Part shown: positions 38,477-56,072 of the stretch, one piece after another
Layout of the letters: the number at the start of each line of letters is the position of its first letter
Numbering within the stretch: position 1 is the stretch's first letter
Assembly: GCF_000632225.1 (NCBI RefSeq)
Contig: NZ_JFYV01000008.1
Coordinates: 1 to 64,000 of the forward strand
From: Sphingomonas sp. RIT328
GTDB lineage: Bacteria; Pseudomonadota; Alphaproteobacteria; Sphingomonadales; Sphingomonadaceae
Reading direction: 5' to 3'
DNA length: 64,000 nucleotides
Translations under genes and position numbers: made by a program
The notes under the pieces: model-generated
The model's database searches: none
Seen by the model: only the letters and a program-made list of their open reading frames with translations
Told to the model about the DNA's origin: nothing

Positions 38477-38721
38477 CTGGGGCTTCGGCCCCTGCGAGGT
38501 CTCGTAGCTCATACGTGTACAGATCGCGTGGCAGCGTGGCAGCGTGACGGTGGACGCCCTTGATCTGATACCCGCCCCGCCCTTTTGCCGACCGCTCAGC
38601 GACTGTCTTCGGATCTGGATCATGCAAAGGCGCAAAGGTGCTGCGCGTGACGACACGTTCGGACGCTCCTGTTTCGAAAGCTTCTTCGCTCATCGCGATG
38701 CGGGACGGCGTTCCTGACCCT

Positions 38722-38834
38722 CCTCCGCGCCTCCGCGTGAACCTCCTTTTCTCTTCGCGTCTTCGCGTCGTCGCGTGATCTTTCATGCCATGACAGCAGT
38801 GGGCCGGAGATTGGTTCACGCGGAGGCGCGGAGG
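38722..38834. repeat. Perfect GCGGAGG inverted repeat
   Basis: Arms 38722-38742 and 38814-38834 are exact 21-base reverse complements separated by 71 bases. Inside lies a GCGAAGAC-type unit (about 38752-38776). The whole gap 38193-39165 (about 970 bases) holds this element, the repeat at 38374-38476 and no supported gene. Confidence 0.68.
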
Positions 38835-39165
38835 CGCGGAGAGGGGTGGGGAAGCGACCGGCGCGAACTTTTTGTTTCGGCCTCTTCACAGCCTCCGCGA
38901 AGTCGCTTCTCGGCTCCGTCATGCCGCACCTGCTCCGGCCTCCGCGGTTCCGGCACACCGTAAGCCGCTGATTTCGCAGTACGGCGGACTTGGCTCCAAG
39001 TCCGGATGGGCGAGACGCCTGGCCTAAGGCCGACAATCGCTCGAGGGCGCGCGCCTCCGACGCACCCGACGATGCGGGGGCGGTTCGCGCAGGGCCCGCC
39101 TCCGCCGGGCTTGACCGCTTGCGGCGGCGCAGCGATGGTACGGCCCTGACGGCGAGGAGCGGGAT

Positions 39166-39720
39166 ATGGCGGAACGGCTGCGCGGCGAGCGCTATTCCAG
39201 CGTGGCGATCGCCTTCCACTGGACGATCGCGGCGCTGGTCATCGCCAATCTGATCATCGGCATCGGCCATGACGGCATCCCGGCGCTGCGGGCGCTGATG
39301 GGGGCGCACAAGGCGATCGGCATCACCGTGCTGGCGCTCACCGCCGCGCGCGTCGCGTGGCGGCTGACGCATCGCCCGCCGCCGCTGCCCGCGGGCACGC
39401 CCGGCTGGGAGAAGGGCCTCGCGCATGCGACGCACTGGAGCCTGTATCTGCTGATGGTGGCGATGCCGCTGACCGGGTGGATGATGGTCTCCGGCCCGCC
39501 GGGACCGGGGCCGGCGCGGCCGCTGAGCTGGTTCGGGCTGTTCGACGTGCCCAAGCTGCCGGTCGGCGAGGGCGCGGCCGATCTCGGCCACAATGCGCAT
39601 GGCCTGCTCGGCTGGCTGATGCTGGCGCTGGTAGTACTGCACGTCGCGGCGGCGCTGCGCCACCATCTGCTGCTGCGCGACTCGGTGCTGGCGCGGATGG
39701 CGCCCGCGCTCGACCGGTAA
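39166..39720 (+). CDS. Cytochrome b561
   Basis: This 184-aa inner-membrane haem b protein has four membrane segments. Candidate haem-ligand histidines: His18 in AIAFHWTIAALV, MGAHKAIGIT, ALVVLHVAAALRHH and HATHWSLYL. MPLTGWMMVSG is the typical turn. It shuttles electrons between quinol and periplasmic acceptors (family knowledge). A GAGCGGGAT ribosome region precedes the ATG. It lies alone after the long repeat-rich gap and upstream of the candidate small RNA. Confidence 0.87.
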   Translation: MAERLRGERYSSVAIAFHWTIAALVIANLIIGIGHDGIPALRALMGAHKAIGITVLALTAARVAWRLTHRPPPLPAGTPGWEKGLAHATHWSLYLLMVAMPLTGWMMVSGPPGPGPARPLSWFGLFDVPKLPVGEGAADLGHNAHGLLGWLMLALVVLHVAAALRHHLLLRDSVLARMAPALDR

Positions 39721-39763: not shown

Positions 39764-39791
39764 TTGAACCAATCGGCGGCTCGCCTATTTT
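39764..39791 (+). promoter_or_regulatory. Sigma-70-type promoter of candidate small RNA
   Basis: TTGAAC (39764-39769), a 16-base spacer and TATTTT (39786-39791) are a good housekeeping promoter, unusually clear for this GC-rich window. The predicted start is about 39798, and no protein-coding start follows before the terminator. Confidence 0.58.
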
Positions 39792-39797
39792 ACAGAA

Positions 39798-39903
39798 GTA
39801 CGGCGCTCGTGTCCCCCCTTTCGCGAGCCCGTATGACACACTTTCAGTGTGTCTCCTCCCTGAACCTTGGCCACTCCGTGCTTCTGCACGGGGTGGTTTT
39901 TTT
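39798..39903 (+). ncRNA. Candidate small RNA with anti-SD-like linker
   Basis: About 106 bases with three stem-loops in series. Stem 1 (39805-39828, 7 bp) has a C-rich loop, TCCCCCCTTT. Stem 2 (39835-39853) is a perfect 8-bp stem with a TTC loop. A single-stranded linker CTCCTCCC (39853-39860) follows. Stem 3 (39871-39896) is an 11-bp terminator stem followed by seven T. The CTCCTCC linker is complementary to Shine-Dalgarno sequences, as in alphaproteobacterial trans-acting small RNAs such as the cuckoo/CcsR and alpha-r14 types (recalled families). No open frame is visible in it. The name and targets are unknown. Confidence 0.6.
39871..39903 (+). terminator. Rho-independent terminator
   Basis: An 11-bp stem (39871-39881 with 39886-39896, one G-T pair, loop TTCT) is followed by seven T residues. 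It is the only textbook intrinsic terminator I see in the window and ends the candidate small RNA, 4 bases before the convergent gene's stop. Confidence 0.85.
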
Positions 39904-39906
39904 ATG

Positions 39907-40761
39907 TCATTCCGCCGCGAGCGCGCGGCCGTCGTCGCCGAGCGCCTCGTCCGCCACCGCGGCGATCATCCGGCGCAGCAGCGCGACGACCATCGGCAGG
40001 CCGGCGCCGGGCTGGTCGAGCGCGGCATCGAGATAGAGCGTCCGGTCGAATTCGATCTGGATCGCGTGAATGCCGCGCGCGGGGGCGGCATGGCGTTCGA
40101 GGATATGGCCGCCGGCATATGGCGTGTTGAGCGCGCTGCGCAGTCCGCTGCGCGCCGCCTCCGCCTCGAGCCGGGCGATGAAGCGCGGCGCCGCCGCCTG
40201 GCCGAAACGATCGCCGAGCACGACGCGGGCATGGTCGCCGAGCGGCGGCATCGAATGGATGTCGAGCAGCACCGCGACGCCGAACCGGCGCTGCACCGCC
40301 GCCAGCGCCGCGGCGAGCGCGTCGTGATAGGGGCGGTGATCCTGCGCGATCCGCGCCGCGACCTCGACCGCGCTGAACCGCCGCCGCCACAGATCGCCCG
40401 CCGCGCCGCCGCGGCGCGGCACCAGCCCCAGTCCGCTGCGCACCTTGGCGGAGGCGGTGGGCAGCGCCTGCGGCCGCGCGCCTTCGTCGACACGCGGGTC
40501 GCGCTCGCTCTCGCCGCGATTGAGGTCGATCCAGGCGCGCGCGCGGCGCTGGACCAGCATCGTCTCGCGCGTCTGCGCGCCGTCCGCCACCGCGTCGACG
40601 AAGCGATCCTCGAGCGCGACGAGCGCGGTGGCGGGCAGGCGCAGCGCGCCGAGCAATGCCGCCGGATAGTCGCGCCCGGCATGCGGCACCGACAGCACCA
40701 CCGGGCTGAGCGGTGCGCCGTCGCGGTCGGTGCCGCCGATCGAGTCGAACGCTGCGTCCAT
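39907..40761 (-). CDS. N-formylglutamate amidohydrolase family protein
   Basis: This 284-aa zinc hydrolase-type protein has the family marks LSVPHAGRDYPAALLG, VALEDRFVDAVAD, RAWIDLNRGESERDPRVDEG, the central LLDIHSMPPLG and the late IQIEFDRTLYLD. Known members split N-formylglutamate to glutamate and formate at the end of histidine degradation, but no hut genes are nearby, so the physiological substrate is open. It is divergent from cpdR with a 97-base spacer. Confidence 0.85.
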   Translation of the reverse strand: MDAAFDSIGGTDRDGAPLSPVVLSVPHAGRDYPAALLGALRLPATALVALEDRFVDAVADGAQTRETMLVQRRARAWIDLNRGESERDPRVDEGARPQALPTASAKVRSGLGLVPRRGGAAGDLWRRRFSAVEVAARIAQDHRPYHDALAAALAAVQRRFGVAVLLDIHSMPPLGDHARVVLGDRFGQAAAPRFIARLEAEAARSGLRSALNTPYAGGHILERHAAPARGIHAIQIEFDRTLYLDAALDQPGAGLPMVVALLRRMIAAVADEALGDDGRALAAE

Positions 40762-41852: not shown

Positions 41853-43973
41853 TCAGTAGCGGACGCTGATCGTGCCGAGGATCGAGCGCGGCGCGGCGTA
41901 GCGGCTCTGATCGAAGGTCAGCGCAGTCAGATATTTGGCGTTGGTGACATTCTGCAGATTGGCGCTGACTGCGATCCGGTCGGTGAGCGCGTAGCGGGCG
42001 AGCAGGCCGAGCGTCGCGACGCTGCCCTGGGTGATGCGGATCGGCTGCCCGGTGGTGGTCGAGAGCGTGCCGGGCTCGAAATAGAAACGCCCCTGATATT
42101 GGAGCGACGCGCCGAGCTTGAGCGCGGCGAGGCCCTGCGGCGTATAGGTCAGGTTGAGCCGCCCGGTGCTGCGCGGCACGAAGGTGCGCACCGCGGTGGT
42201 GTCGTCGCCGCGGATGCGCATCAGCGTGACGCCGCCGGTGACCTGCACGCCCGTCGTCGGCTGGCCCGAGACTTCGAGTTCGACGCCCTGCGAGCGGGCA
42301 TCGATGCCGCGATAGATGGTGCGGCCGAGCGTCGTGTCGAAGCCGGCCGATTCGGCGGTGTTGTTCTGCCGCGCCTGGAATAGCGCGGCGCTGGCATTGA
42401 GCAGGCCGTTGAACCATGCGCCCTTCAGCCCCGCTTCGATATTGTCGCCGGTGATCGGCGCGAGCTGGCGGTTGTTGGCGTCGAACTCGCTCTGCGGATT
42501 GAAGATCGTCGCGTAGCTCGCATAGGCGCTGATCGTCGGCGACAGGTCGAGCGTCGCGCCGACGAACGGCAGGAAGCGCTTGGCGTCGAAGCTGGTCGGC
42601 ACGTCATAGGAATAGCCGCTGTTGCTGGCATGCGTGTAGCTCGCGCCGAGCATCACCTTGAGCGGATCGGCGGGGTTGAGGCGGACGAGGCCGTAGACCG
42701 TCTCGCGCTGCGTGTGCACGTCGAGGCTGAGTGTGTAGGGGGTGGGGAAGGTCGGCGCCGGGAAGGTGCCGCCGAACAGCGAATCGAGCGGCAGCGACTG
42801 GTTCAGGCTGGCCTGGTCGTAGCTCGAATATTGCCGGTAGCGTTCGGCGCCGCGCATCACGCCGACCATCACGTCATGCTTGCGGCCGCCGATCGTCACC
42901 GGGCCGCCGACATAAGCGTCGAGCGTCAGGTTGCGCGTCTCGCCGGAGAAGGCGCCCGGATAGGTCTGGATGCCGAGGCCGGTGGCGCGGTCGGGGTTGC
43001 CGTAGACGTAGAAGAGCTGGTCGTTCTCGCTCGTCGCCTTGCGCAGCGCCGAGATCTTGCCGGTCCAGCCGTTACCGAAATCATGCGTCAGGTCGACGAA
43101 GATCTGCCGGTCGATGACGTTCCAGCCCGACCAGCGCGGCGCGTAATTGGCGGAGCGGGCGAAATCGATGCGGCTGCCGTCGGTGTAATAAAGCGGGATC
43201 GCGCCCCACATCGCGCCGCGGCTCTGATGGTCCTGATGGCCATAGCCCGCCGACACGACGGTATTGGGGCCGAGATCCGCCTCGACGATGCCATAGCCGG
43301 TCCAGCGGCGCAGGCTGTAGCGATCGAGATAGCTGTCGGTGTCGAGCAGCGCGCCGACCGCGCGGGCGCGGATGCTGCCGTCGGCGGTGAGCGGCACGCT
43401 GACGTCGGCGTCGATCCGCTTGTTGTCGAACGAGCCATATTGCGCGCTCGCCGTGGCGTGCAGCTCGCGATAGGGGCGCTTGCGGATGAAGTTGATCACC
43501 GCCGAGGGATTGCCGGTCGGCGAGAGCAGGCCGGGCGCGCCGCGCACCACCTCGACCCGGTCGTAGATCGCGGTGTCGATCGAGCCGGTCTGGATGCCGA
43601 ACGAGAAGGGCAGGCCGATGCCGTCGATCTGGAAGGTCTGGATGTCGAAGCCGCGCGCCGAATAATAGACGCGGTCGGTCTCGCCGGCGAGCACGTTGAC
43701 GCCGGGGACGGTGGCGAGCAGCGCATTGACGTCGTTGAGCTGGAAATCCTCGATCTGCGCGCGGGTGACGACGCTGACCGATTGCGGCGTCTCGCGCTGG
43801 CTGAGCGGCAGGCGGGTCGCGGTGCGCTGCGTCTTGACGCCGTAGGAATCGGTGCCCTCGCTGCGCTGGCCGGTGACGATGATATCGTCGCTGCTGCGTT
43901 GCGGATCGGCGGCGGTGTCGTTCGCCGGTGCCGCTACCATGCTTGCCGCCATCAACGCGATGAACGCCGTCAT
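41853..43973 (-). CDS. TonB-dependent siderophore receptor
   Basis: This 706-aa outer-membrane receptor has a short signal peptide and the TonB box DDIIVTGQR at about 29-37. The plug domain follows (RETPQSVSVVTRAQIEDFQL, then EVVRGAPGLLSPTGNPSAVI), a pattern of the siderophore subclass. The barrel ends in the expected aromatic residue (ISVRY). A GGGAG ribosome site precedes the ATG. A weak TTGC/GCAA palindrome 48 bases upstream could be a Fur-type site. The ligand is unknown. Confidence 0.88.
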   Translation of the reverse strand: MTAFIALMAASMVAAPANDTAADPQRSSDDIIVTGQRSEGTDSYGVKTQRTATRLPLSQRETPQSVSVVTRAQIEDFQLNDVNALLATVPGVNVLAGETDRVYYSARGFDIQTFQIDGIGLPFSFGIQTGSIDTAIYDRVEVVRGAPGLLSPTGNPSAVINFIRKRPYRELHATASAQYGSFDNKRIDADVSVPLTADGSIRARAVGALLDTDSYLDRYSLRRWTGYGIVEADLGPNTVVSAGYGHQDHQSRGAMWGAIPLYYTDGSRIDFARSANYAPRWSGWNVIDRQIFVDLTHDFGNGWTGKISALRKATSENDQLFYVYGNPDRATGLGIQTYPGAFSGETRNLTLDAYVGGPVTIGGRKHDVMVGVMRGAERYRQYSSYDQASLNQSLPLDSLFGGTFPAPTFPTPYTLSLDVHTQRETVYGLVRLNPADPLKVMLGASYTHASNSGYSYDVPTSFDAKRFLPFVGATLDLSPTISAYASYATIFNPQSEFDANNRQLAPITGDNIEAGLKGAWFNGLLNASAALFQARQNNTAESAGFDTTLGRTIYRGIDARSQGVELEVSGQPTTGVQVTGGVTLMRIRGDDTTAVRTFVPRSTGRLNLTYTPQGLAALKLGASLQYQGRFYFEPGTLSTTTGQPIRITQGSVATLGLLARYALTDRIAVSANLQNVTNAKYLTALTFDQSRYAAPRSILGTISVRY

Positions 43974-44020
43974 TCTCTACTCCCTGATCGCTGCCAGCCT
44001 CTTAGCGGCTGTCGCTGCTG

Positions 44021-44037
44021 TTGCAAGTGAATAGCAA
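44021..44037. promoter_or_regulatory. Possible Fur-type site before siderophore receptor
   Basis: TTGCAAGTGAATAGCAA is an imperfect palindrome with TTGC/GCAA ends, about 50 bases upstream of the receptor start on the minus strand. It does not match the classical Fur box well, so the call is weak. Confidence 0.25.
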
Positions 44038-44147
44038 TAGCCGATCCATGGGGAAGGATAGTGTTACATCATAGTCACATATCGGGCCCATTTCTCGATC
44101 GTCCTAAGTCTGACATTGCCGCTAAGACCGGAATCCACTAATGAAAA

Positions 44148-44161
44148 TGCTAGCGCTACCA
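44148..44161. promoter_or_regulatory. LacI-family (XylR-box-like) operator
   Basis: TGCTAGCGCTACCA is a near-palindrome, read as TGGTAGCGCTAGCA on the other strand. It has the central AGCGCT of LacI-family operators and differs by one base from the Xanthomonas xyl-box TGGTAGCGCTAACA (recalled). It lies 51 bases before the large TonB receptor start, where a repressor would block transcription. Confidence 0.62.
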
Positions 44162-44212
44162 TAAAGCGCGAGGTTCAGTTTGCGCCGGGTTGGGGCGCCG
44201 GAGAGGATGGGG

Positions 44213-47200
44213 ATGACGAAGATCGTGACCGCGGACGGCAAGCGTCCGGCTTTCAACGCTGCGCTGCGTGCCGGTGTGTCGAGCCTTGCGCTCGGCATGA
44301 TCGCGCTTGCAACGCCGGCTTTCGCCGAAGGGCTGGGCCAGGCGGATACGAGTGCGATCCCACAGGCGACGGACCAGGCGGCGACCACCGCGGGCGACCT
44401 CACCAGCAATGCGACCACCGCCGATCAGGTGCCCGCAGACCAGCCGTCGGGTGAAGAGATCGTCGTCACCGGTCGTCGTGCCGCGCTCCAGGCCGCCGAC
44501 GAGCGCAAGCGCCGCAGCGAGACGATCATCGACTCGGTCGTCGCCGACGAGGCCGGCAAATTGCCAGACAATAGCATCACCGAAGTGTTGCAGCGCGTCT
44601 CCGGCGTGTCGATCGTGCGCTTCGCCGCGCTCGGCGATCCCGATCACTTCTCGGTGCAGGGCTCGGGCGTGCAGGTGCGCGGTCTGACCGGCGTCGCCTC
44701 GCGCCTCAACGGCCGCGAGATCTTCAGCGCCAACAACGGCCGCGCGATTCTGTGGAGCGACGTCACCCCCGAGCTGATGGCCGCGGTCGACGTCTACAAG
44801 GCATCCACCGCCGACCTGATCGAGGGCGGCACCGGCGGGCAGATCGATCTGCGCACCAAGATGCCGTTCGACTTCAACGGCGACTGGCATATGGCCGCGA
44901 CGGGTGAGTTGAGCATGGGCGACATGGCGCAGAAGGCCGATCCGGCCGCGTCGATGCTGCTCACCAAGTCGTTCGATACGCCGATCGGCAAGATCGGCAT
45001 CCTCGGCGACATCGCCTACAGCCAGTTCAGCTCGCTGTCGCAGTTCATCCGCACCGAGCCCTATTTCAAGACCAACATCAGCGGGAAGGACTACTATATC
45101 CCGGGCGGCTTCACCTATGGTGACGAGGCGTTCCAGTATCGCCGCTACGGTATCTATGGCGCGGTGCAGTGGGCGCCGACCGACGACCTGACGTTCAGCG
45201 GCACCTTCTTCCAGTCGCGCTACAAGAGCCAGTCGAGCGATTACGGCGCGCAGGTCAGCTCGCAGACGCTCGCGGTCGACCCGGCGAGCAGCAGCTTCGA
45301 CAGCAACGGCGCGCTGACCAAAACCAGCTCGCTGTTCAACCGCGACACCAATACCTTCCTGCCCAGCACCAGCCCGGTGACGAGCTCGGGCAACAAGGGT
45401 TTCGTCGACAGCAACACGCGCACCCGCGACTATTCGCTGGCGTTCAACTATGCGCCGACCGACAGCCACCTGTCGTTCAAGGGCGCGTTGCAGCGTGTCG
45501 ATTCGCGGCAGATCTACGATCGTCTCGACATCTTCCGCGATCTGAGCTTCGGCACCGGCTTCGGCATGGACCTGACCGGCGACCTGCCGCAGATCACCAC
45601 CACCGCCGCGGCGCAGGCCGGCTTCGCCAATCCGGCGAACTATTTCTGGTCGGCGTCGATGCCGCATAACGAGCGCAACAAGGGCCGGCTCGATGCCGCG
45701 AACCTCGATGTCGAATATTCCTTCGACGACAGCTTCCTCAAGGCGATCAAGGTCGGTGCCCGCGCTGCCGAGCGGACCGAACGCGATCTCCAGAACGGCT
45801 ATAACTGGAGCGCGCTGGGCCGCGGCTGGAACGGCGATCCGCAGCTGACCTATGCCAATGCCGCGCCGGGCGACACGACCTATCACGCGTTCAAGGACTT
45901 CTTCCGCGGCGAGACGGTCCTGCCGGGCAATCTGATGTTCGCGAGCGAGGATCTGGCCCGTCGCTTCGTCGCCAACCGGACCGGACTGACCGCGTCGCCG
46001 CCGGCGGGCTTCTGCCCCGCCACGGCACAGTTCGACTGCTCCGCATCGGGTCCGCTGCCTTCCAGCACCTATGGTGGGGGTTCGCAGATCACCCGTCCGG
46101 CCGGTTTCGTGCTGCCCGGCGATCAGGTCGACAACAAGACGATCACCAAGGCTGCTTACGCCTTGGCACGCTTCGGTCGTCCGGAGGGCGGCATCTCGGG
46201 CAACGTCGGCGTCCGCGTCGTCAACATCCAGAACGAGGGCAGCGGCTACATCCAGCAGAATTCGTCGACCTTCGTTCGCAACGGCGTGACGCAGACGCTG
46301 GCGCAGACCTTCATCGCCCGTGGCGGCAAGGCGGAATTCACCCGCTGGCTGCCGTCGATCAACGTCGACTATGCGCCGAACAGCAAGACGAAAATCCGCG
46401 CCGGCTATAACATCACGATGGATCTGCCGAGCTTCAACGCGCTGCGCGCGTCGGGCAGCATCGGTGTGGCGACGACGAGCAATCCGGGCAACACCGGCGG
46501 CACCAGCAGCCTGCCCAATATCTTCACCAACTTCACCGCCGATACGGGCAATCCGCTGCTCAAGCCGACGATGTCGAACAACTTCGACCTGTCATTTGAA
46601 TATTACGCCCGCGCCGGTACCGCCTTCCACATCGCGCCGTTCTACAAGCGCCTGACCAACCTGCCGATCTACTCGCTGACGCAGCGGCAGGTGACGGTGG
46701 TGTTCACCGACGGCACCAGCGAGAACGTCAATGCCGCGGCGACCGACTATATCAACGCGACCAAGGCGGCGACGGTCAAGGGCGTCGAGGTCGGCGGTCG
46801 TGCCTTCCTCGACATGCTGCCCGGCGTGCTCGCGGGTCTCGGCTTCGAGGCGAATTATACGTTCATCGACAGCCAGAACCCGGGCGATCTGTATCGCGAC
46901 ATCAACGGCGTCACGCACAATGACGCGCCGCTGATCGGCCTGTCGAAGCACAATGCCAACGTCACCTTGCTGTACGAGCGCAAGGCGGTGTCGTTCCGCG
47001 TCGCTTATTCGTGGCGGTCGCGGTACCTGCAGACGACGAACAGCAACGGCACCAACCCGACGTATAACTATTACCCGTCGGCGGGTGCGACCGCGGTGCC
47101 GATCCAGATCGCGCTGCCGGTCTATGGCGGCGCCTATGGTACGCTGGACGGCGGTGCGCGCTTCAAGGTGACCGACAATTTCTCGTTCGGCGTGCAGTTC

Positions 47201-47323
47201 ACCAACATCCTCGGCGCGACGCAGCGGACGTTGATGGGCGGCTATCCCAACGGGGCGCTCTATGGCCGCAGCTGGTTCCAGAGCGATCGCCGTATCTCGA
47301 CCGGGATCAACCTGGCCTTCTGA
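44213..47323 (+). CDS. Large TonB-dependent receptor, glycan-locus type
   Basis: This 1036-aa receptor has a signal peptide at about 15-38 (SSLALGMIALATPAFA), an Ala/Thr-rich spacer and the TonB box EEIVVTGRR at 81-89. The plug follows (KLPDNSITEVLQRVSGVSIV, then VRGLTGVASRLNGREIFSAN), a pattern of large carbohydrate-type receptors in sphingomonads, Caulobacter and Xanthomonas. The C-terminus ends in the barrel signal (STGINLAF). The start at 44213 follows GGAGAGG by seven bases; ATG 44207 is the alternative. It lies after a LacI-type operator and before GH39 and GH74 genes, so xylose-containing oligosaccharide uptake is likely. Confidence 0.88.
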   Translation: MTKIVTADGKRPAFNAALRAGVSSLALGMIALATPAFAEGLGQADTSAIPQATDQAATTAGDLTSNATTADQVPADQPSGEEIVVTGRRAALQAADERKRRSETIIDSVVADEAGKLPDNSITEVLQRVSGVSIVRFAALGDPDHFSVQGSGVQVRGLTGVASRLNGREIFSANNGRAILWSDVTPELMAAVDVYKASTADLIEGGTGGQIDLRTKMPFDFNGDWHMAATGELSMGDMAQKADPAASMLLTKSFDTPIGKIGILGDIAYSQFSSLSQFIRTEPYFKTNISGKDYYIPGGFTYGDEAFQYRRYGIYGAVQWAPTDDLTFSGTFFQSRYKSQSSDYGAQVSSQTLAVDPASSSFDSNGALTKTSSLFNRDTNTFLPSTSPVTSSGNKGFVDSNTRTRDYSLAFNYAPTDSHLSFKGALQRVDSRQIYDRLDIFRDLSFGTGFGMDLTGDLPQITTTAAAQAGFANPANYFWSASMPHNERNKGRLDAANLDVEYSFDDSFLKAIKVGARAAERTERDLQNGYNWSALGRGWNGDPQLTYANAAPGDTTYHAFKDFFRGETVLPGNLMFASEDLARRFVANRTGLTASPPAGFCPATAQFDCSASGPLPSSTYGGGSQITRPAGFVLPGDQVDNKTITKAAYALARFGRPEGGISGNVGVRVVNIQNEGSGYIQQNSSTFVRNGVTQTLAQTFIARGGKAEFTRWLPSINVDYAPNSKTKIRAGYNITMDLPSFNALRASGSIGVATTSNPGNTGGTSSLPNIFTNFTADTGNPLLKPTMSNNFDLSFEYYARAGTAFHIAPFYKRLTNLPIYSLTQRQVTVVFTDGTSENVNAAATDYINATKAATVKGVEVGGRAFLDMLPGVLAGLGFEANYTFIDSQNPGDLYRDINGVTHNDAPLIGLSKHNANVTLLYERKAVSFRVAYSWRSRYLQTTNSNGTNPTYNYYPSAGATAVPIQIALPVYGGAYGTLDGGARFKVTDNFSFGVQFTNILGATQRTLMGGYPNGALYGRSWFQSDRRISTGINLAF

Positions 47324-53978: not shown

Positions 53979-56072
53979 TTGATCGACACCAGTCTGGCGA
54001 TGCGGATCGGCATCGCCATCGCAGTCGGCTATGGCGCGGTATCCGCCGCCGCGGCACAGACCGCGCCGGAGGACGAACCCGGCGAGACGATCCTCGTCAC
54101 CGCCTCGCCGCAGGGCTATACGGCGAGCGAGACCGGGCTCGCCAAGATCCCGGTGCCGCTGCGCGACCTCCCGCAATCGATCGCGACCGTCACCGCGGCG
54201 GTGCTGCGCGACCAGCGCGCTTTGTCGGTGCAGGATGCGCTGAAGAACGTGCCGGGGGTCAGCTTCGCGGCGGGCGACGGCCAGCGCGACCAGGTCACGA
54301 TCCGCGGCTTCTCGGCGATCGCCGACCAATATGTGAACGGCTTCCGGGACGATGCGCTTTATTACCGCGACCTGTCCAACGTCGAACGGGTCGAGGTGGT
54401 CAAGGGGCCGGCGGCGGTGCTGTTCGGGCGCGGATCGTCGGGCGGGCTGATCAACCGCGTGCTCAAGCGTCCCGACAGCAATGTCACCGCCGCGGCGTTA
54501 AGCGCCGGATCGTACGCCGCGCGGCGTGCCGAATGGGACGTCGGCCGTTTCGATGCGCGCAGCGGCGTCGGCTTCCGCATCACCGGCGCGCACGAGGATG
54601 ACGACAGCTTCCGCGACCAGCAATTGCTGCGCCGTTCCGCGATCGCGCCGTCGCTGCTGATCGGCGAGGGGCGCGCAACGACGCTGATGCTCGAAGCCGA
54701 CGCGCTGCACGATCACCGGCTGATGGACCTCGGCATTCCGGCGCTCGGCGGGCGGCCGATCGACGTGCCGCGGTCGACCTATTACGGGGCCGCCAATGCG
54801 CGCGACGTGGATACGACGACGAGCAAGGTCTATTCGCAGACCGTCGAGCTGACGCACCGCCTGTCCGAAGCACTGCGCTTCCGCAACGGCTTCCGCCACT
54901 ATGATTACCGGCTGTGGCGCAACAGCACGCTCCCCGCGGCGATCGATCCGGTCGCGCGGACGGTGACCTTGCAGCACGGCCGGCTCAACCGCGACGAGGA
55001 AGGCTGGTCCGATCAGGCGGAGCTGACGTGGCGCGGCCGGCTCGCCGGGGTCGATCACGTGCTGCTCTACGGCGTCGAGCTGTCCCGGCAGACGAAGCGG
55101 GCGGATACGTTCGCGCAGGTCAAGGTGGCGGTGACGTCGCTGTTCAAGCCGGTGCTGCCGGTACTCGATCCCGCCCGCTTCACGCGGATCGCGACGGCGA
55201 CCGCGAGCGTGTTCGACACCGGCGGCGTCTACGTGCAGGATTTCGCCGACTTCGGCCATGGCATCAAGGCGCTGGTCGGCGTCCGCCGCGATCGCTTCCG
55301 GCAGGCGACCGACCAGCGGCTGCCGGTCGCGGCGCGGCTGGTCCGCACCGATATCGCGTGGAGCCCGCGGGCCGGGATCGTGCTGCAACCCGACGCGACG
55401 CAATCCTATTATCTGTCGTGGAGCCGCAGCTTCCAGCCGTCCGCCGAGACCTTCGCACTGACCGCGAGCAATGCCGACATCGCGCCCGAGCAGACCAGCA
55501 ACAAGGAGGTCGGCGGCAAATATACGCTGCTCGGCGGCGCGCTCAACGTGCAGGCGGCGGGGTTCCTGCTGCGCCGCACCGGGATCAAGGGCACCGATCC
55601 GCTCGACCCGACGCGGCTGGTCGCGGCGGGCACGCAGCGGACGCGTGGCGTCGAACTGTCGGCGCAGATGACGCTGCCCGCGGGGTTCCAGGCGGTCGCC
55701 GGCTATGCCTATCTCGATGCCCGGATCACCGCCTCGTCGCGCCCCGATTTCGTCGGCAAGGGTGCGACGATCGCGCCGCGCCATGCCGCCAACGGCTTCC
55801 TCAGCAAGAGCTTCGCCGGCCGCTTCGGGCTGGGCGGCGGAATCAATTATGTCGGCGACCGCTGGGCTGATCCGCTCAACACGACGGTGCTGCCGCATTA
55901 TGTCACCGTCGACGGGCTGCTGTGGGTGGCGACGGGGCCGCTGCGCTGGCAGCTCAACGCCTATAATCTCGGCAACGTCCATTATACCGTCGCCGGACAT
56001 GGTACGTCGGCGCTGCTCAACATGCCGGGCGCGCCGCGCTCGGTGCTCGGCACGCTGCGGATCGCCTTGTAG
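53979..56072 (+). CDS. TonB-dependent siderophore receptor
   Basis: This 697-aa outer-membrane receptor starts at a TTG five bases after AAGGGGG; ATG 54000 is the alternative. It has a signal peptide (GIAIAVGYGAVSAAAAQ), TonB box ETILVTASP, a plug domain (RDLPQSIATVTAAVLRDQ, VEVVKGPAAVLFGRGSSGGL) and a C-terminal phenylalanine-free barrel end (LGTLRIAL). RDLPQS and FGRGSSGGLINR are typical of FhuA/FpvA-like receptors for ferric siderophores. It follows a large hairpin. The ligand is unknown. Confidence 0.86.
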   Translation: MIDTSLAMRIGIAIAVGYGAVSAAAAQTAPEDEPGETILVTASPQGYTASETGLAKIPVPLRDLPQSIATVTAAVLRDQRALSVQDALKNVPGVSFAAGDGQRDQVTIRGFSAIADQYVNGFRDDALYYRDLSNVERVEVVKGPAAVLFGRGSSGGLINRVLKRPDSNVTAAALSAGSYAARRAEWDVGRFDARSGVGFRITGAHEDDDSFRDQQLLRRSAIAPSLLIGEGRATTLMLEADALHDHRLMDLGIPALGGRPIDVPRSTYYGAANARDVDTTTSKVYSQTVELTHRLSEALRFRNGFRHYDYRLWRNSTLPAAIDPVARTVTLQHGRLNRDEEGWSDQAELTWRGRLAGVDHVLLYGVELSRQTKRADTFAQVKVAVTSLFKPVLPVLDPARFTRIATATASVFDTGGVYVQDFADFGHGIKALVGVRRDRFRQATDQRLPVAARLVRTDIAWSPRAGIVLQPDATQSYYLSWSRSFQPSAETFALTASNADIAPEQTSNKEVGGKYTLLGGALNVQAAGFLLRRTGIKGTDPLDPTRLVAAGTQRTRGVELSAQMTLPAGFQAVAGYAYLDARITASSRPDFVGKGATIAPRHAANGFLSKSFAGRFGLGGGINYVGDRWADPLNTTVLPHYVTVDGLLWVATGPLRWQLNAYNLGNVHYTVAGHGTSALLNMPGAPRSVLGTLRIAL

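Follow-up and report, generated by a model that had tools for sequence, protein, structure and literature searches.

The intergenic sequence between a cytochrome b561 gene and the gene of N-formylglutamate amidohydrolase (FGase) in the window, as we call the whole stretch of 64,000 nucleotides that was analysed, very probably encodes a real bacterial small RNA. Its kinship is firm: the RNA is an FGase-linked alpha-r8 RNA (SuhB/MmgR/SisA-type) in a lineage-specific long variant. Its covarying structure, two nearly fixed C-rich unpaired stretches, the identity of its locus and its spread through the family Sphingomonadaceae are matters of observation. As to function, it is probably a repressor of receptor mRNAs, judged from sequence comparisons, which suggest that the C-rich loop of an added 5′ hairpin matches receptor start sites and that receptor genes are silenced as a group. 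The reading that combines these points, a long alpha-r8 RNA linked to FGase and acting as a two-seed anti-SD repressor of TonB-dependent receptor mRNAs, is the one we favour, with reasonable though not strong confidence. One conserved RNA whose loop is complementary to many receptor starts would be a simple means of controlling so many receptors.

A three-hairpin RNA and its locus

The predicted fold of positions 39764–39910 contains three hairpins with a free energy of −59.5 kcal/mol (z = −6.5), and none of 200 shuffled sequences was as stable. A DNA search located the element in 58 of 61 genomes of the same genus, including its own, where it is present in a single copy at E values up to 0.001; partial matches were found in 2 of 39 genomes from other families of the same order. 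In the genus alignment (58 sequences, 56 of them distinct, and 119 columns), RNAalifold recovered the same three stems when no structure was supplied. The named structure has 97.3% of its cells paired and double changes in 22 of its 34 pairs. None of 500 shuffles reached the observed value on any of five covariation measures, and slid versions of the structure gave 34–54% pairing, far below the true register. The linker UCCUCCCUGAACC is nearly fixed across the 58 genomes while the stems covary, and the same holds for the stem-1 loop, as expected for unpaired seeds held in place by structural stems.

The three stem-loops named in a preliminary description of this DNA are thereby borne out by both fold and covariation, and its forecast of compensatory stem changes around a fixed linker in other sphingomonads came out as predicted, with both proposed anti-SD stretches, the C-rich stem-1 loop and the linker, nearly fixed in the 58 sequences. 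The single-stranded state that it gave to the linker holds for 39854–39868, the free linker; the first C (39853) of CTCCTCCC, which spans 39853–39860, closes stem 2. The terminator was described with an 11-bp stem and seven T; the seven T are in place at 39897–39903, and the stem has 13 pairs, of which the two at its base are G-U and seven show changes on both sides. Whole-window scans gave 43 terminator-like sites (19, 16, 8 and 0), and no other site in the 64-kb window has more than nine pairs or seven consecutive T, which upholds the claim that this is the only textbook terminator.

The −35 and −10 boxes, which had been read as TTGAAC-N16-TATTTT and are indeed found in the sequence with a spacer of 16 nt (39764–39791), also recur in the genus. 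A pattern search for a TTG-type −35 box and a −10 box spaced by 15–19 nt succeeded in 53 of the 58 sequences, including the own one, and the distance from the end of the −10 box to the C-run is 20–24 nt in these 53. Because the two boxes lie at a fixed distance upstream, hairpin 1 is placed at the 5′ end of the transcript. A scan with an E. coli-type promoter consensus listed no promoter on the + strand. We infer that the RNA would be transcribed from the conserved promoter; its previously estimated length of about 105 nt agrees with a predicted start near 39798 and the end of the terminator (Table 1). With promoter, hairpins, terminator and conserved unpaired stretches, the locus is organised like an independent, trans-acting small RNA, as had been claimed.

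Table 1. Positions of the RNA, its neighbouring genes and its predicted target sites within the window
Feature	Coordinates	Strand	Basis or remark
Cytochrome b561 gene, upstream neighbour	39166..39720	+	Pfam PF01292, E 6.3e-34
−35 box TTGAAC	39764..39769	+	Sequence; conservation profile
−10 box TATTTT	39786..39791	+	Sequence; conservation profile
Predicted small RNA, ~105 nt	39798..39903	+	Start predicted from −10 box; terminator sets the end
Stem-loop 1, added 5′ hairpin	39798..39834	+	Double compensatory changes in 9/13 pairs
Loop 1, UCCCCCCUUU, proposed second seed	39812..39821	+	Near-invariant in 58 genus sequences
Stem-loop 2	39835..39853	+	Double compensatory changes in 6/8 pairs
UCUCCUCCCU, counterpart of the alpha-r8 10-mer	39852..39861	+	9/10 identical to UUUCCUCCCU; last 8 nt unpaired
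Single-stranded linker UCCUCCCUGAACCUU	39854..39868	+	One column varies, rest invariant, 58 sequences
Intrinsic terminator, 13-pair stem and seven T	39869..39903	+	Fold, terminator scan, covariation
FGase gene, convergent neighbour, alpha-r8 locus marker	39907..40761	−	Pfam PF05013, E 1.6e-60
Predicted target site UCAGGGAG, TonB-dependent receptor gene	43980..43987	−	Upstream of ATG 43973
Predicted target region, divergent TonB-dependent receptor gene	44187..44215	+	ATG taken at 44213 (heuristic)

In 52 of the 58 genus loci, FGase similarity is found next to the RNA, on the other strand. In the remaining six, none was seen downstream (four were read over about 530 nt, one over 620 nt up to a contig end and one over 1.5 kb), and the linkage may have been lost there. 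A reading of the RNA as a leader was rejected, as the next downstream gene lies on the opposite strand. Two further observations concern the surrounding DNA and the assemblies: an intergenic inverted repeat of the CCTCCGCGCCTCCGCGTGAACC/GGTTCACGCGGAGGCGCGGAGG type, seen by eye at 38715–38860 in the window, is perhaps a small palindromic repeat element, and the two equal-score copies of the RNA in one genome (G054, C1:34601 and C1:3430022), close to both ends of one contig, are possibly an assembly overlap.

Kinship with alpha-r8 and the added 5′ hairpin

At the gathering threshold, an Rfam scan of the window returned a tRNA as the sole match. In a permissive scan of the locus (261 nt), suhB/MmgR (RF00519) was the best family with 35.2 bits and an E value of 6.6e-6, below the gathering cut-off of 41 bits. 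The match spans 39831–39910 and so begins at the end of hairpin 1, which marks this hairpin as an addition to alpha-r8; stem-loop 1 lies almost wholly beyond it. Within the match, an unpaired CCUCCCU core has a short hairpin on one side and the terminator on the other and is invariant in the 58 sequences. The 10-mer published for alpha-r8 is UUUCCUCCCU (excerpts of PMC12559287). Its exact, fully single-stranded form is absent here; UCUCCUCCCU takes its place with the first two bases paired in stem 2, and for this reason we class the RNA as an alpha-r8 variant and not as a plain member. Several other genera and families have the exact 10-mer at the equivalent position, and other genera of the family combine its context with the C-loop hairpin. 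Since these intermediates carry both features, they bridge this RNA and standard alpha-r8. According to the same excerpts, most species have one alpha-r8 copy adjoining the FGase gene (PMC12559287), a trait that is present here.

The Rfam cut-off overlooks this locus in all 20 loci scored, 10 from the genus and 10 from elsewhere in the family, not one of which exceeded it. A strict-filter search, which covered 34 genus copies including six of the 10 genus loci, likewise gave none above it (23 scored, the best at 40.2, and 11 without a row). Eight loci from other families of the order score 54–67 bits against suhB, partly by choice, as they were picked as best suhB hits (six) or DNA matches (two); FGase similarity adjoins five of the eight within 500-nt flanks. 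Three sibling suhB-type RNAs were also seen in the own genome (C30:23551-23624, C7:68057-68131 and C34:77091-77169). They exceed the cut-off, have CCUCUCC cores and carry GGCAUCCUCUCCUAAAAACUUU where alpha-r8 has its 10-mer; a TTGC-rich stretch upstream of them may be a shared control site.

To follow the long form through the family, we ran a model of it, R1, on the family genomes and obtained matches in 255 of 298 genomes and 88 of 96 genera, with 43 genomes lacking a match. All of the 30 best family loci, which were picked by a model favouring that loop, have four or more C followed by UU. Among 20 lower-scoring loci, taken from the end of the listed R1 matches and read down to about 70 bits, seven have four C with UUU, ten have four C with UCA and three have CCC followed by UCA, so that UCA replaces UUU after the C-run in 13. 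At least four C upstream of the core were counted in 17 of these 20, in 14 by script and in three by eye (L590, L592 and L597). The C-rich loop is thus widespread in the family; the exact UCCCCCCUUU is not. In several of these loci, which belong to a group of genera of the family (L584, L585, L587, L593, L594, L596 and others), the stem-1 loop CUCCCCUCAUGG stands in place of the C-run with UUU, a natural variant that could serve to test the seed idea. Loci of other families also have an apparent upstream hairpin, with loops that lack a four-C run, such as UUCUUGGUGUAGGAA in the outgroup genome G083; the loop of G074, from another family, contains UUCCCC, and this genome was excluded as an outgroup.

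A two-block pattern scan of named genomes found at least 120 stretches, and the 80 titles listed comprise Sphingomonas, Sphingobium, Rhizorhabdus, Blastomonas, Stakelama, Hephaestia and similar genera, along with a single unplaced alphaproteobacterium and a record labelled Bacillus sp. Titled Bacillus sp. 2B10 (RPSH01000014.1), this record holds the sphingomonad RNA flanked by FGase and cytochrome b561 and is, on account of this combination, probably mislabelled.

GGGG at receptor start sites

In Caulobacter, SisA acts as a repressor of TonB-dependent receptors and uses its 10-mer to pair with one of them (excerpts of PMC12559287), which is why receptor genes were the planned target test. The own genome has 89 Plug-domain (TonB-dependent receptor) matches, and background genes were drawn from 400 kb of the same genome. 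In a first scheme, 42 k-mers were compared between 83 of the 89 receptor start regions and 201 background genes. AAGGGG (12 versus 3, p 4e-5) and AGGGGG were among the 6-mers with the strongest enrichment, and several of the first ten correspond to parts of AAAGGGGGGACAC, the complement of loop 1. CAGGGA, a complement of the linker, was also enriched (4 versus 0 among the same 83 receptors and 201 background genes). The longer linker motif CAGGGAG, promising on 28 receptor genes, is rare overall (3/83 versus 0/201).

A second scheme counted GGGG at −22 to −3 under two heuristic start rules (best-SD and first-ATG) in the own genome and three more, taking in 74 of the 89 own receptors and, from the 30 best-scoring receptors of each other genome, 24 in the family genome G046 (106 in the genome), 28 in the family genome G392 (55) and 28 in the outgroup G083 (93). 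Receptor-like background genes were left out (0, 5, 3 and 3, respectively). Under the best-SD rule, GGGG was present at 40/74 receptors versus 12/135 background genes in the own genome, 16/24 versus 23/186 in G046 and 19/28 versus 25/148 in G392, as compared with 2/28 versus 25/186 in G083, whose lower G+C content (0.52 versus 0.64–0.68) is controlled by the in-genome background, with the lineage difference remaining. The first-ATG rule gave 32/74 versus 11/135, 14/24 versus 20/186, 11/28 versus 19/148 and 1/28 versus 18/186 in the same order. AAGGGG was found at 15/74 receptors and 1/135 background genes of the own genome. When the three family genomes were pooled, 75/126 receptors had GGGG versus 60/469 other genes, the latter made up of 20/86 signal-peptide-like non-receptor genes and 40/383 remaining genes; with only 20/86 in the signal-peptide-like group, secretion does not explain GGGG at receptors.

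A replicate restricted to receptors took in 25 of 30 family loci from nine more genomes and 23 of 26 outgroup loci from six more, with four further outgroup loci excluded and G192 having no usable start. GGGG was present at 16/25 family and 2/23 outgroup receptors (p = 7e-5), or at 12/25 and 1/23 under the first-ATG rule. AGGGAG, the complement of the standard core, marked 10/28 receptors versus 6/186 background genes in G083 and also 4/28 versus 3/148 in G392; in the replicate it was found at 1/25 family and 2/23 outgroup receptors. Enriched in G083 and not in the six other outgroups, it confines the outgroup half of a possible seed switch, described below, to one genome.

We then consider predicted pairing. 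The contrast between receptors and background was larger for loop 1 than for 299 of 300 shuffled loops. Raw pairing of loop 1 to receptors is ordinary, being equalled by 59 of 300 shuffles and by 64 of 139 permutations. When the C-run was kept and the flanks were permuted, 17 of 139 loops matched the contrast of loop 1, which did better than the other 122; the loop 1 match is essentially one of C-run to G-run. The linker core separates receptor from background starts as well (p 3e-6), and several C-rich seeds, including the sibling core and the 16S anti-SD, do so in part. The reversed linker and the reversed loop, used as controls, also separated them, and this prompted the addition of k-mer counts, outgroups and shuffled loops.

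Exact complements before an ATG were searched in the 61 genus genomes, with hits in 33 genomes for one pattern and 11 for the other. Several are the RNA gene itself on the opposite strand, and among 41 loci (30 of 51 and 11 of 11 places) no two reading frames longer than 30 aa were alike and no target recurred. In the linker search, the control pattern obtained by reversal was found more often than the pattern itself. Nearly all genus genomes contain this control (GTA, a gap and AGGAGGGACTT) about once, which means that it is part of a conserved element.

Within the window, a divergent pair of TonB-dependent receptor genes (41853–47323) lies 2–5 kb from the RNA, with starts near 43973 and 44213 and strong predicted sites at both. 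UCAGGGAG is predicted to form eight consecutive pairs with the linker (−18.3 kcal/mol), and the target region of the second gene is predicted to pair with loop 1 at −16.4 kcal/mol and with the linker at −16.2 kcal/mol. No good site is predicted for a third receptor gene of the window, with its ATG taken at 54000. The idea, already put forward in the preliminary description, that the RNA could repress many mRNAs is strengthened by the receptor-gene result.

Alternative readings, proposed mechanism and known systems

Hairpin 1 might be only a 5′ stability or chaperone-docking element of an alpha-r8 RNA that hits its targets through the linker core alone, with the G-rich SDs unrelated. In favour of this, the core is conserved at least as well as loop 1 and separates receptor starts by itself; permuted flanks around a kept C-run do about as well as loop 1, and the sequence after the C-run varies among other genera. 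Such a hairpin, however, need not keep UCCCCCCUUU genus-wide, or a C-run in most of the family loci read, while its stem covaries, and GGGG at receptors is common in genomes with the C loop but rare in all seven outgroup genomes, which makes this reading unlikely. We consider it distinctly improbable that the G-rich receptor SDs are answered by another regulator, be it one of the siblings of suhB type or a CsrA-like protein, and that the present RNA serves another regulon. CsrA-kind proteins bind GGA, the own genome has three siblings above the cut-off with CCUCUCC cores, and the sibling core, the 16S anti-SD and other C-rich seeds partly separate receptors; the sibling core, however, fits AGGAGAGG and not AAGGGG, and the unbiased top k-mers AAGGGG, AGGGGG and GGGGAC are matched most closely by loop 1.

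Two more readings have very little probability. Orthology with AbcR (alpha-r15), with two anti-SD motifs and control of ABC transporters, would account for the same three-hairpin, two-motif layout (excerpts of PMC7143759) and for one lower match to a suhB-clan family in the permissive Rfam scan, but suhB is the best Rfam family, related loci carry the exact alpha-r8 10-mer, and the neighbours are cytochrome b561 and FGase, the alpha-r8 linkage, and not lsrB. Equally remote is a hairpin cluster in the 3′ UTR of the cytochrome b561 mRNA or a terminator shared by convergent genes. The locus does lie between convergent genes, 43 nt from the cytochrome b561 stop codon to the −35 box, but a conserved promoter stands directly upstream, the unpaired blocks are invariant, and the RNA is kept where cytochrome b561 similarity is absent within about 1.5 kb (e.g., L006 and L012).

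In the favoured reading of a two-seed receptor repressor, the 5′ hairpin would present loop UCCCCCCUUU, and hairpin 2 and the terminator would flank the CCUCCCU core. Together with Hfq, the RNA would pair with ribosome binding sites and block translation, by analogy with SisA and the SuhB of Sphingopyxis. Its main targets would be TonB-dependent receptor mRNAs, whose SD sites are often of the (A)AGGGG type complementary to loop 1, and a few receptor sites would fit the linker instead. Of the two anti-SD seeds, loop 1 would be the newer. More tentatively, and with less than even confidence, we propose a seed switch in which the alpha-r8 RNA acquired a C-run loop on a 5′ hairpin early in the Sphingomonadaceae, the ribosome binding sites of dozens of receptors moved to (A)AGGGG, and the old core was left as a second seed. 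If so, a lineage-specific SD code would place a receptor regulon under one RNA, receptor sites should read TGAGGGG in genera whose loop is CCCCUCA, and a small RNA seed and a class of ribosome binding sites would be shown changing together.

Among the known systems, alpha-r14 (NfeR1) and cuckoo/CcsR share with this RNA the general idea of anti-SD stretches. The likeness to them that had been suggested earlier probably gives way to suhB/MmgR (alpha-r8) as the best family and to the FGase linkage; neither is among the matches listed up to E = 10 in the permissive scan, made with an Rfam copy that may lack a model for one or both. In its three stem-loops and two CU-rich anti-SD motifs, the layout is closest to that described for AbcR1/AbcR2 (alpha-r15), and AbcR is called partly homologous to SuhB (excerpts of PMC7143759). 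AbcR1/AbcR2 differ in lying beside lsrB, in having targets rich in ABC transporter mRNAs and in belonging to another sequence family. The SuhB of Sphingopyxis granuli TFA has the same Rfam-derived name and a sphingomonad host; it is reported as a 61-nt RNA that blocks a 5′ UTR in an Hfq-dependent manner (excerpts of PMC6563040). The TFA genome paper used cmsearch for ncRNAs (excerpts of PMC4741004), and cmsearch at the Rfam cut-off would miss the FGase-linked form; the 61-nt SuhB may therefore be of the sibling type. In the excerpts of PMC6563040, PMC4741004, PMC7713065 and PMC7064620, the long form is not described.

The nearest relative is alpha-r8/suhB/MmgR (RF00519; SisA–D of Caulobacter and MmgR of Sinorhizobium), which has in common with this RNA a short hairpin, an unpaired CCUCCCU core, an intrinsic terminator, an FGase-linked locus and a likely anti-SD repression of TonB-dependent receptor and other mRNAs (excerpts of PMC12559287). 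In contrast to alpha-r8, the RNA described here scores below the Rfam cut-off, its 10-mer is altered at one position with two bases paired, its stem 2 is stronger, and it has an extra 5′ hairpin with a C-run loop. As far as the compared sequences indicate, this 5′ hairpin with its C-rich loop is what is new relative to standard alpha-r8.
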